A stretch of DNA of 64,000 bases from Xenococcus sp. PCC 7305 (GTDB lineage Bacteria > Cyanobacteriota > Cyanobacteriia > Cyanobacteriales > Xenococcaceae): NCBI RefSeq assembly GCF_000332055.1, contig NZ_ALVZ01000234.1:1-64000 (forward strand), in the 5' to 3' direction. The position numbers and the translations under genes are program-made. Positions 7,789 through 11,497 of the stretch are shown piece after piece (position 1 is the stretch's first letter; every line of letters starts with the position of its first letter). A model generated the notes under the pieces. The model had not been told where the DNA came from. It worked only from the letters and a program-made list of their open reading frames with translations, and did no database searches.

Positions 7789-9201
7789 ATGATTCGTCTA
7801 AAGAAACAAAAACCACGATATATTCTGATGTTGCTGTTATTTTTGCTAGCGGCAACTGCGATTTTTTATCGCAAATCCCAACCTAAAACTGAACTTGCCG
7901 AGATAAGTGAAGCCAATAATGCCCAAGAAATAGTTTCAGCAGAGACGGGAATCCTCACAATTTGGTGGTACACGGGCTATTTGGAAGCCGAAAGAGAAAC
8001 ATTATCGCAAATAGTTAAAGAATGGGAAAAAAAATATCGCAAAAAAATTAAGCTAGTATTTTTTGAAGAGACAACCTTACTTGACGAGATAGAAAAAGCT
8101 TTAATATCTGGTGCAACTCCAGATATCACAATAGATCGCACTCAGTTGGTCACCCGTTTAGCTTGGTCTGGTAAGCTCAAAGATGTTTCGGAGTTGATAG
8201 AGCCACTCAAAAATTCTTTCCCCGAACCGATTTTACAAAACGCTTATCAATACAATAGCCTAACCAAAGAAAAAAGTTATTACGCTGTGCCAATTCTCCA
8301 AGAAGGCATCTACTTACATTATTGGCGGGATTTGCTAACAGAATTGGGCTACAGTGATGCAGATATTCCCCAGGACTGGGATGGATTTTGGCAATTTTGG
8401 CTGCAAATACAAAAGCAATTATCGCCCCAAGAACAAGTTTTTGCCTTAGGATTTCCTTCCTCTCCTTTCTCCACCGATACTTTTTTGTTTTTTGAACATA
8501 TTTTAGAAGCCTATAATGTTCAGGTTGTAGACTCTGAAGGTCGATTAACGATTGAGCAAACGCAAAACCGCCAGGGAATTATTAATGCGTTGCAATGGTG
8601 GACGCAATTCTATCAGGATAAATATATTCCTCCCTCGGCGATTGTTTGGGAAAACAGCGATAATAATGCGAGTTTTTACAATCGAATCGTCGCAATGACA
8701 GCTAATCCTACCCTTTCGATTCCTGCGGGGATAGCGGATGATCCAGATGTTTATTATCAGAAGTTAGGGACTTTGGCTTTTCCCAGAAAACCTAATGGTG
8801 AACCAATGACTTATATTCCCCGAGTCAGACAAGTTTTGGTTTTTGCCGATCGCAATTTGGTAGATGCCAAAAGTTTTTTATCATATTTTGTTCAGCAAGA
8901 GGTTTTACAAAACTACATTGAGGCTTCTGGGGGGCGTTTTTTCCCGACCAATCAAGATTATTGGAATTCTCCCTTTTGGAATAATTCGTCTGATCCCCAT
9001 CTGGCTACGGTTTACCAAATGCTGGCGCAATCGAAGACTCGCCCCCATTATTTTAGTAATAGTCCTGCTTATATGGAAGTTTTAGAAGCTAATGTTTGGG
9101 GTCAGGCTCTTTATCGGATCATTGCTGACGGCATTTCTCCTGAAGTAGCAGGGGATGAAGCGATCGCGCAAATTCAAGAAATTTTCCAAAGATGGCAATA
9201 G
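7789..9201 (+). CDS. Extracellular solute-binding protein, family 1 (sugar type), orphan
   Basis: 470 residues. One N-terminal membrane anchor or uncleaved signal (about 11-29, no lipobox Cys) precedes a two-lobed binding-protein fold of the maltose/sugar type: LTIWWYTGYLEAERETLSQIVKEWEKKY at the start, GATPDITIDR, and later AMTANPTLSIPAG. Such proteins normally feed an ABC importer from the periplasm. No permease or ATPase gene is in the neighbourhood; instead the next gene, 13 bases downstream, is the binding-protein/ion-channel fusion. The two are almost surely one transcript, which suggests that this protein presents a ligand to a receptor rather than to a transporter. That last point is inference. 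Confidence 0.85.
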   Translation: MIRLKKQKPRYILMLLLFLLAATAIFYRKSQPKTELAEISEANNAQEIVSAETGILTIWWYTGYLEAERETLSQIVKEWEKKYRKKIKLVFFEETTLLDEIEKALISGATPDITIDRTQLVTRLAWSGKLKDVSELIEPLKNSFPEPILQNAYQYNSLTKEKSYYAVPILQEGIYLHYWRDLLTELGYSDADIPQDWDGFWQFWLQIQKQLSPQEQVFALGFPSSPFSTDTFLFFEHILEAYNVQVVDSEGRLTIEQTQNRQGIINALQWWTQFYQDKYIPPSAIVWENSDNNASFYNRIVAMTANPTLSIPAGIADDPDVYYQKLGTLAFPRKPNGEPMTYIPRVRQVLVFADRNLVDAKSFLSYFVQQEVLQNYIEASGGRFFPTNQDYWNSPFWNNSSDPHLATVYQMLAQSKTRPHYFSNSPAYMEVLEANVWGQALYRIIADGISPEVAGDEAIAQIQEIFQRWQ

Positions 9202-9214
9202 GTCACAATCATTT

Positions 9215-11497
9215 ATGAAATTTCAGAAAATTGTCCCTTGGTTAATGCTTGCATTATTGACATTGGCAACTGTGCTCGTGTTATCTCACTATCGCTTCAA
9301 TCAAGAGAATATTGAAATTGCCCTTGTCGCTCCTCTAACTGATGTTGGCCCAACGATTTCTATTGGGGGCAACTCGATGATTAGAGGTGCGCAGCTTTAT
9401 GTTGAGCAGATTAATGAAGCAGGAGGCATCAAGGGGAGAAAAATCAAATTGCGGGTATATGATGATAAAAATGATGTCAAAACAGCCACTGAAATTGCCC
9501 ATCAGATAGTTGAGTCTCAGGCACTGGCCGTAATTGGACATTATAGTAGTGGCAATTCTTTAGCTGCGGGAAAAATTTATCAAGCCTATGGGATTCCCGC
9601 GATTACCGGTTCTGCTACTGCCGATGAAGTGACAAAATGGAACCAATGGTACTTCCGCTCCACTTTTTCTAATAGTGATCAAGGTCTATTCATTGCTAAC
9701 TATGTCAAGAAAATTTTAGACCAACCTCAAATTACGATTATTGACAGCTCAGATATCTATAGTGCAGATCTCGCGGAAATCGTCGCTAGAGAATTTACTA
9801 ACTTAGGGGGGGAGGTTGTTAATAAATGGGGTCTCAAAACAGCTCAAGATCGCGATTTAATCATTCAAAACTTGGTCGCTATCAAACAGCAAAACCAAGA
9901 TCCAGGGGTTATTGTAATCACTGCTCATCGTCAAGAAGCTGCAATTTTAATTGCCAAAATGAGACTATATGGATTAGATTATCCAATTTTTGGAGGGGAT
10001 AGTCTATCGGATATCTCTCTAGCTCAAAAATTTGTTGATACTCCTGAAAATCGTGATGATCCAGGATTTTTCACGAATAATATCTATGCTCTGACCCCAA
10101 TTATCTTCGATATTTCTGAACAGACAGGTCAAGATTTTAGAGGTTTATACAAGCAGCGTTTTGACACCAGACCTGGTTGGATTGCCGCAGCTAGCTACGA
10201 TGCGGCTAAAATCCTGATTACCGCGATCGCAGAATCATTGCAAGACAAAGAAAAACCCTTAGCCAAGGCAATAGATCAACATACATACCATCAGAGTCGT
10301 TACTTAGTTAAAGAATCCTTAGCTAATCTTCAGCCGATAGATACTACCATTGCTAATTCTTCACAGGAAAACCATTTTGATTCAAAGGGGAATATCCTGG
10401 TCTCCCCCTTAGTAGGCGTCTTTAATTACGATTCCTTAACTTCTGCCTATATTCAATTACATAGGATTCTCAATCTCAAATTAGTTAATAATTTGGCACA
10501 ACAAATCGAACAAGGTAGCATTATTCAAGTTGGTTCTGAATATATGCTCCTAACCCATGTTGTTTATACGGGAGTTGACATCAATCAAGTCAGTAGCATT
10601 GATGAAAAAAGTTCTAGTTATCTCCTAGATTTTTATCTATGGTTTCGCTACCAGGGTGAAGATTTACATCCCGAAGATATTGAGTTTAGTAATTATAATG
10701 CCGAAGCTATGGATTCTGGGGAGACTTTAACCTTAGACGAGCCTTTAGAAGAAAAACGGCTAGGAAAGTCTGATTATAAGCTATTTCGCATGAAAGCAAG
10801 CTTTAAGGAGCAATTTAAGTTTCAAGATTATCCTTTTGATAATCAAACTTTAGCGGTTCGCTTTCGTCATCGTCATCTGACTAAAGTTCGCTTACTTTAT
10901 GCGGTCGATAATATTGGCATGGAAGCTGTTACTACACCGGAAATTTTGGCAAAATGGGAGCAAGGTCAAGTTTTTGATGAGATTAGTGACTGGATTGTCA
11001 GAAAAGTTAGTTTTTACCCTGATACTTTAATCAATCAGTCGACCCTTGGCGATCGCCGTTTTGTTAATACTGATGCTAAGATTAAATATTCTCGTTTCAA
11101 TGCCGCAATTAATATTACGCGAAATACCGTAAGCTTCACTATTAAAGAGTTATTGCCATTATTATTCTTTGTTGTAGTTAGTTATCTGGTGTTATTTCTG
11201 CCCTTTGAGAATATTTCTATTGACGCTGTGAGTGGTATTTTATTAGCGGTTGTTTTTTATCATCTTAGTTTGATTGAGAAACTACCAGATGGTGTCGGTT
11301 ATGTAGTGACTCTCGATTATGCTTTTTATCTGACTTACGGACTGCTAGGATTGGAATTATTGCTAGTCACAATCGGTCATAGTAAGTTTTTTGGTCAAGA
11401 AACCACGAAAATTAAACAACTCATGATTTTTAGTCGCGTAGCTTTTCCGACTTGTCTGGCAATGAGCGTAGCCATTCTATTTTGGAAATATTTTTAA
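9215..11497 (+). CDS. Leu/Ile/Val-type binding protein fused to a pentameric ligand-gated ion channel
   Basis: 760 residues from ATG 9215; a longer frame starts at 9155 but overlaps the previous gene. Residues about 8-25 form a signal/anchor helix. Residues about 32-425 are a type-1 periplasmic binding domain: IALVAPLTDVGPTISIGG, GAQLYVEQINEAGGIKGRKI, AVIGHYSSGNSLAAGKIYQ, PGWIAAASYDAAKIL. Residues about 445-635 look like the beta-sandwich of a Cys-loop-type channel without the cysteines, with the signature YPFDNQTL at 539-546. Four helices follow: M1 about 641-662, M2 about 667-690 (ending in EKLP), M3 about 698-722, M4 about 739-760 with SRVAFP. From memory, M4 and the PFDxQ region strongly resemble GLIC from Gloeobacter. 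Expected to sit in the plasma membrane with the sensor outside. The channel call is firm; ligand and ion are unknown. Confidence 0.88.
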   Translation: MKFQKIVPWLMLALLTLATVLVLSHYRFNQENIEIALVAPLTDVGPTISIGGNSMIRGAQLYVEQINEAGGIKGRKIKLRVYDDKNDVKTATEIAHQIVESQALAVIGHYSSGNSLAAGKIYQAYGIPAITGSATADEVTKWNQWYFRSTFSNSDQGLFIANYVKKILDQPQITIIDSSDIYSADLAEIVAREFTNLGGEVVNKWGLKTAQDRDLIIQNLVAIKQQNQDPGVIVITAHRQEAAILIAKMRLYGLDYPIFGGDSLSDISLAQKFVDTPENRDDPGFFTNNIYALTPIIFDISEQTGQDFRGLYKQRFDTRPGWIAAASYDAAKILITAIAESLQDKEKPLAKAIDQHTYHQSRYLVKESLANLQPIDTTIANSSQENHFDSKGNILVSPLVGVFNYDSLTSAYIQLHRILNLKLVNNLAQQIEQGSIIQVGSEYMLLTHVVYTGVDINQVSSIDEKSSSYLLDFYLWFRYQGEDLHPEDIEFSNYNAEAMDSGETLTLDEPLEEKRLGKSDYKLFRMKASFKEQFKFQDYPFDNQTLAVRFRHRHLTKVRLLYAVDNIGMEAVTTPEILAKWEQGQVFDEISDWIVRKVSFYPDTLINQSTLGDRRFVNTDAKIKYSRFNAAINITRNTVSFTIKELLPLLFFVVVSYLVLFLPFENISIDAVSGILLAVVFYHLSLIEKLPDGVGYVVTLDYAFYLTYGLLGLELLLVTIGHSKFFGQETTKIKQLMIFSRVAFPTCLAMSVAILFWKYF

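Follow-up and report, generated by a model that had tools for sequence, protein, structure and literature searches.

The open reading frame that begins at position 9215 of the window, the 64,000-nucleotide stretch of Xenococcus sp. PCC 7305 DNA analysed here, joins in a single chain of 760 residues a complete type I periplasmic binding protein domain (PBP-I) to the beta-sandwich and four-helix pore of a pentameric ligand-gated ion channel (pLGIC). From sequence and model we consider it probable that the PBP-I flytrap gates a channel likely to be permeable to cations, with the beta-sandwich serving as an adaptor between the two. In a sister group of proteins, one of them encoded in the same genome, PBP-I and the sandwich precede an MscS pore instead, and we lean towards the view that the pair forms a portable sensor-transducer cassette able to gate two unrelated pores.

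The fusion gene itself belongs to a kind already known by sequence. PBP-I::LBD::4TM fusions from the alphaproteobacteria Bradyrhizobium japonicum and Magnetospirillum magnetotacticum, with the same order of PBP-I, sandwich and 4TM pore as in the Xenococcus protein, were reported by Tasneem et al. (2004; PMC549065), who also noted PBP-II genes as operon neighbours; the exact architecture, whose novelty the first-pass annotation had marked for checking, has thus been on record since then. Cyanobacteria appear in that report with simple forms only, in contrast to the present locus, where a cyanobacterium carries the PBP-I fusion and a PBP-II neighbour together. The 2004 paper describes neither relatives with a C-terminal PBP-II nor any with an MscS pore. 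Our search of the open-licence literature found no functional study of a PBP-I-fused pLGIC, no report of the form with a C-terminal PBP-II, and none of an MscS protein with a PBP-I domain or a pLGIC sandwich; nor did we find an exchange of pores within this family in the literature.

Table 1. Features of the fusion gene and its upstream neighbour, with positions in the window, and domain architectures of the family.
Feature	Position	Strand	Basis or occurrence
PBP-II-type solute-binding protein (SBP_bac_8 / SBP_bac_1), 470 aa, N-terminal membrane anchor	7789..9201	+	Pfam
Fusion gene, PBP-I :: pLGIC beta-sandwich :: four-helix pore	9215..11497	+	ORF, model, relatives of the same architecture
N-terminal hydrophobic helix, residues 3-28, signal anchor or signal peptide	9221..9298	+	model helix, hydrophobic sequence
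PBP-I Venus flytrap, Leu/Ile/Val-binding-protein type, residues 33-418	9311..10468	+	PF13458, superposition on 4gnr, ligand-site residues
pLGIC extracellular beta-sandwich, residues 434-636	10514..11122	+	profiles; mostly beta in model
Pro-loop YPFDNQ, residues 539-544, bacterial Cys-loop equivalent	10829..10846	+	alignment of relatives
Pre-M1 arginine R636	11120..11122	+	25/25 pLGIC-type, 0/17 MscS-type
M1, residues 638-659	11126..11191	+	model, GLIC alignment
M2 pore helix, residues 669-689	11219..11281	+	model, GLIC alignment, conservation
M3, residues 699-722	11309..11380	+	model, GLIC alignment
M4, residues 730-759, no C-terminal extension	11402..11491	+	model
Type A, PBP-I::sandwich::4TM			fusion gene of Xenococcus sp. 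PCC 7305; domain scan of relatives
Type B, type A with PBP-II (SBP_bac_1) after M4			Thiotrichaceae, an anaerolinean, a cyanobacterium with two in tandem
Type C, PBP-I::sandwich::MscS			includes P0004 of the same genome
Type D, PBP-I::sandwich::MscS::cNMP-binding			seven members among the relatives scanned

The frame runs to its end at 11497 free of stops and frameshifts. An in-frame ATG lies further upstream, at 9155; the start at 9215, which the first-pass annotation had also chosen, is the better fit, because position 9155 falls inside the upstream gene and the protein of another cyanobacterium (G024) begins at the equivalent residue. An assembly artefact, or two genes run together by a frameshift, can be excluded: the frame has no interruption, and relatives from several phyla, one of them encoded on the complete chromosome of Desulfonema magnum, keep the fusion. 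A scan for promoters and terminators around the gene returned sites no more frequent than chance. The AlphaFold monomer model, built from a 42-row alignment, is confident (mean pLDDT 88.8, pTM 0.84) and agrees with the sequence profiles in placing a Leu/Ile/Val-type (LIV-type) binding domain and a pLGIC in one frame, as had been proposed from the letters alone.

The sensor domain combines a Pfam match to Peripla_BP_6 (PF13458, E 7e-35) with the two-lobed flytrap fold of the LIV-type PBP-I superfamily: residues 31-416 of the model superpose on LivJ (4gnr) with Z 44.4 and 1.8 A over 342 residues, and LivK (3td9) and the GABA/alanine receptor Atu2422 are further matches (Z 41-44 across LivJ, LivK and Atu2422). 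By alignment, S112, T135 and D262 occupy the positions of Ser79, Thr102 and Glu226 of LIVBP, which we take to be its amino-acid ligand-site residues, with Glu replaced by Asp at the last. Of 41 sequences with a PBP-I domain, 38 keep the Ser79 equivalent and 26 the Thr102 equivalent; 22 are acidic at the Glu226 position, a feature that is not universal. This pattern suggests that the PBP-I ligand of many members is amino-acid-like. The fold and most of the ligand-site positions are common to LivJ, LivK, Atu2422 and the fusion protein, the difference being that the former are soluble partners of ABC transporters and the PBP-I domain here is tethered to a channel.

Structures of mGlu receptors were also among the fold matches, and the PBP-I fold is shared with the amino-terminal or ligand domains of both ionotropic and metabotropic glutamate receptors. 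The likeness, drawn in the first-pass annotation as a sensor of one receptor class on the pore of another, extends to the sensor only, the pores or 7TM bundles of glutamate receptors being unrelated to pLGICs. In particular, the arrangement of ionotropic glutamate receptors, a PBP-II ligand domain interrupted by a K-channel-like pore, is absent; the pore is of the pLGIC type and the chain contains no PBP-II match.

DeCLIC of Desulfofustis is, to our knowledge, the one pLGIC studied so far that carries an N-terminal domain. It resembles the fusion protein in having an extra periplasmic domain in front of the sandwich, and differs in that this domain consists of two beta jelly-roll lobes rather than a flytrap (PMC9897478). 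By analogy with the behaviour of DeCLIC (PMC9897478, PMC12664993), gating of the Xenococcus channel might take place mainly at the sandwich, or through ions or pH, with PBP-I merely modulating the kinetics. We regard this as unlikely: in place of two small lobes there is a full, apparently binding-competent flytrap whose site is largely conserved.

The channel half of the protein is less obvious to standard searches. In a single-sequence Pfam search neither PF02931 nor PF02932 matched the fusion protein, and matches were few among its relatives. Pfam alone proved a misleading test, with PF02931 matching just 7 of 21 ordinary bacterial pLGICs. A phmmer search of the PDB with the fusion protein gave pLGIC matches at 5e-4 to 5e-3, and a profile of 25 family sequences (residues ~430-760) matched GLIC at 3e-19, with an alignment spanning the Pro-loop region and M1-M4 in full. 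Conversely, when the whole genome was searched with a profile built from 21 ordinary bacterial pLGICs, all of them short, whose own match to GLIC is full-length at ~1e-29, the fusion gene was the best match (E 3.3e-36), covering both sandwich and pore; hhalign against canonical sandwiches gave 99.8%. The Pfam check proposed earlier for the translation thus held for the binding domain and failed for the two channel families, the channel being recognised by family profiles instead. The model in turn contains the four pore helices, and the motifs PFDNQ, EKLP after M2 and SRVAFP in M4, on which the first-pass annotation had based its assignment, are all in the sequence. Neither an absence of channel matches in residues 445-760 nor a fold lacking the four-helix pore, either of which would have spoken against that assignment, was found. 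In structure searches (Foldseek, VIA) of both models the rows listed were filled by PBP-I structures and carry no information on the channel part, and the channel fold is assigned here through sequence profiles and predicted secondary structure, not through a direct structural match.

In its sandwich and pore the fusion protein is like GLIC of Gloeobacter and ELIC, which have a homologous sandwich and M1-M4 and a cysteine-free Pro-loop, and unlike them in possessing an N-terminal binding domain. The loop has no cysteine, and so lacks the disulfide pair of eukaryotic Cys-loop receptors; the protein is a Pro-loop receptor. Alignment with GLIC places Asp670 at 2', Leu677 at 9', Leu684 at 16' and Pro691 at 23' of M2, with Glu665 at -3'. 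Pro691, part of a conserved LP after M2, is present in all 25 pLGIC-type relatives. The 2' residue is acidic in the fusion protein and in 14/25 sequences, and the -2' residue is acidic in 15/25. As these acidic residues are common without being universal in the relatives, selectivity is something we infer, and the pore of the fusion protein is probably cation-permeable; ion selectivity may vary across the relatives, given that 5/25 have Arg at 2'.

When one genome of each species was scanned with two short peptide patterns, at least 40 loci were found, a lower bound to which searches by phylum and family added more. The survey of cyanobacteria that had been suggested for this architecture found a PBP-I-fused channel in 7 of 386 sampled genomes. 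Such channels also occur in Thiotrichaceae, Desulfobacterota, SAR324 and Chloroflexota, and an alphaproteobacterial PBP-I::sandwich::4TM example (L158) was recovered alongside several MscS types. By domain content the relatives fall into the four types of Table 1, and both pore types are found together in the Xenococcus genome, Desulfonema magnum, Halobeggiatoa, Parabeggiatoa and a SAR324 genome. The two Beggiatoa-group genomes among these have 12 and 15 matches.

Tandem pairs of fusion genes were seen in D. magnum (L138, L139) and at L073, L075, L113, L092 and L153. In two of the D. magnum pairs the Pro-loop Asp is gone from one member (PFE, PFG in place of PFD) and present in the other, a hint that the channels may be heteromeric. 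The frequency of pairs, and a loss of the kind expected of specialised subunits, would be compatible with a fusion protein that is non-conducting alone, its role being that of a receptor in the membrane or of a single subunit in a heteromer. In the case of the Xenococcus protein we find this very improbable, because its gene is the only copy of this type in the genome, with all pore and coupling features intact.

The MscS-type member of the same genome, P0004, is a 969-residue paralogue on contig C188 (L034:660-3569, minus strand). Its pore matches the MS_channel beta-domain (PF00924, 4.5e-17) and YnaI chains (1.6e-14), and it has the TM3 and beta-domain of the MscS superfamily; this pore, usually heptameric in MscS proteins, is shared by MscS, YnaI and the sister group and not by the fusion protein of 9215..11497. 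We know of no described MscS protein that has a PBP-I domain and a pLGIC sandwich. The cNMP-binding domain of the seven type D relatives is shared with bCNG, the bacterial cyclic-nucleotide-gated MscS proteins. The sister group with the MscS pore is large, includes many proteobacterial members and often bears this domain, which would lie in the cytoplasm.

That the domain between PBP-I and the MscS pore is a pLGIC sandwich is supported by comparison with ordinary pLGICs. A sandwich profile of 22 ordinary sequences matched 24/24 MscS-fused sandwiches (E 2e-18 to 5e-8) as well as 25/25 pLGIC-fused ones (E 8e-29 to 1e-20); the ordinary set contains no fused protein, although it was gathered with a seed that included P0004. 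With hhalign the MscS-fused sandwiches matched the ordinary set at 99.5%, and in the genome-wide search with the ordinary-pLGIC profile P0004 was found at 1.9e-13 over the sandwich only. A profile of the MscS-fused sandwiches had no match in the PDB up to E 1, so the link to pLGICs rests on the ordinary-pLGIC profiles and hhalign.

The two groups differ at the positions through which a pLGIC sandwich is thought to act on its pore. The Pro-loop P, D and Q and the pre-M1 R are each present in 25/25 pLGIC-type sequences, and in 2, 1, 1 and 0 of 17 MscS-type sequences, respectively; P0004 has the degenerate loop NFGEHILG. By contrast, Tyr451 and Trp476 of the sandwich core are present in all aligned relatives, including 17/17 of the MscS type. 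A set of 24 proteins fetched later, in which L145 repeats L086, gave the same picture, with YP[FL] in 12/12 and D in 10/12 of the pLGIC type, and P or D kept in 0/12 of the MscS type. The combined tree has one change of pore (97/92) and the sandwich tree unites all MscS forms as a single clade (100/99), whereas the tree of PBP-I alone has two changes; once the columns of the coupling residues were left out together with L089, a row on a long branch, support for a single MscS clade was gone. The pore thus changed once or twice, the trees giving no firm direction, and the loss of the coupling residues counts as one or two evolutionary events rather than many. Every ordinary relative of the sandwich has a pLGIC pore, and the simplest reading is therefore that the MscS form is derived.

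These observations bear on what the sandwich does. Tasneem et al. (2004; PMC549065) proposed for the PBP-I::LBD::4TM architecture that the binding protein concentrates ligand: PBP-I, possibly with PBP-II, would capture a solute and pass it to the orthosteric site of the sandwich, which would then gate the pore in the usual pLGIC manner. Conservation of the sandwich well beyond the coupling loop, as at Tyr451 and Trp476, fits this proposal. We nevertheless think it rather unlikely, since PBP-I and sandwich also occur with an MscS pore that lacks the pLGIC gating interface, which suits an adaptor better, and no sandwich plus MscS protein without PBP-I turned up among the relatives. Our main departure from Tasneem et al. 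is that the evidence favours the sandwich as an adaptor over the sandwich as the only ligand site; its orthosteric site may itself bind a ligand.

In the flytrap-gated channel that we favour, five chains would assemble as a pentamer in the cytoplasmic membrane, their binding domains lying in the periplasm. Closure of the PBP-I flytrap on a small amino-acid-like solute would be relayed to the sandwich, whose role would be chiefly that of an adaptor, and onward via the Pro-loop and the pre-M1 arginine to M2. The pore, with acidic residues at its cytoplasmic mouth, would then open and admit cations, so that nutrient availability would be signalled electrically or by ions. Gating by the flytrap is supported by the complete PBP-I domain, its LivJ/LivK and Atu2422 fold and the largely kept amino-acid-clamping positions; the coupling route by the conservation of its elements exactly where a pLGIC pore follows; and the adaptor role by the occurrence of PBP-I and sandwich together before either pore.

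A second input, perhaps sugar-like, could come from the PBP-II partner. The first-pass annotation had missed the upstream gene, as it had the relatives with an MscS pore, which lie outside the window. This gene, which matches PF13416 (1.6e-21) and PF01547 (1.7e-15), ends 13 bp before the start of the fusion gene on the same strand, and no ABC permease was seen among the ORFs of 6-15 kb. A homologue immediately precedes the fusion gene in G024 and in G197 (E 2e-197), a genome of another family, so that the arrangement is kept in three cyanobacteria. The G024 and G197 copies are lipoprotein-like, with a Cys after the signal, in contrast to the membrane-anchored Xenococcus copy, which lacks that Cys. 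PBP-II is thus found in the relatives either as this upstream gene or fused after M4. The profile models of these two forms do not find each other, and the two are not of one subfamily; for an interaction between the upstream protein and the channel, the fused form therefore offers an analogy and no direct proof.

In the fusion protein a sensor and a pore are joined whose structures are both well understood, and the MscS sister group offers a natural swap in which sensor and sandwich stay constant, the pore is changed, and the presumed coupling residues are gone. Comparison of the two makes the coupling of extracellular domain to pore, a long-standing question, testable. If the cassette is real, ligand-gated MscS channels would be a receptor class so far undescribed, and an extracellular domain of the neurotransmitter-receptor superfamily would have been transferred to another channel, losing the coupling loop that it originally had. 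Already from the sequences, the sister group shows that this domain is not bound to a single pore in nature.

Several other loci carry related domains. A second Xenococcus pLGIC, of 641 residues on contig C224 (L001:973-2898, minus strand), has a long N-terminal region, apparently of two beta-rich repeats and reminiscent of the extra domain of DeCLIC, before its sandwich, and has a close relative in G026 (L038). On contig C231 of the same genome a 662-residue frame (L175:73-2058, plus strand) places a Cache-like domain before a pLGIC-like sandwich, with one in-frame TAG within the match; similar proteins also occur in G197 (L117) and G778 (L168), the latter adjoining a separate PBP-I-like gene. 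In G015, L033:5847-7700 (minus strand) encodes a sandwich, 4TM pore and shortened PBP-II with almost no PBP-I, and may be a decaying gene. Among the MscS-type fusion genes of Magnetococcales, a burkholderialean and an acetobacteracean (L097, L099, L104, L105, L106, L107), several adjoin very long repetitive adhesin-like frames, a gene resembling type I secretion ABC transporters, or both.
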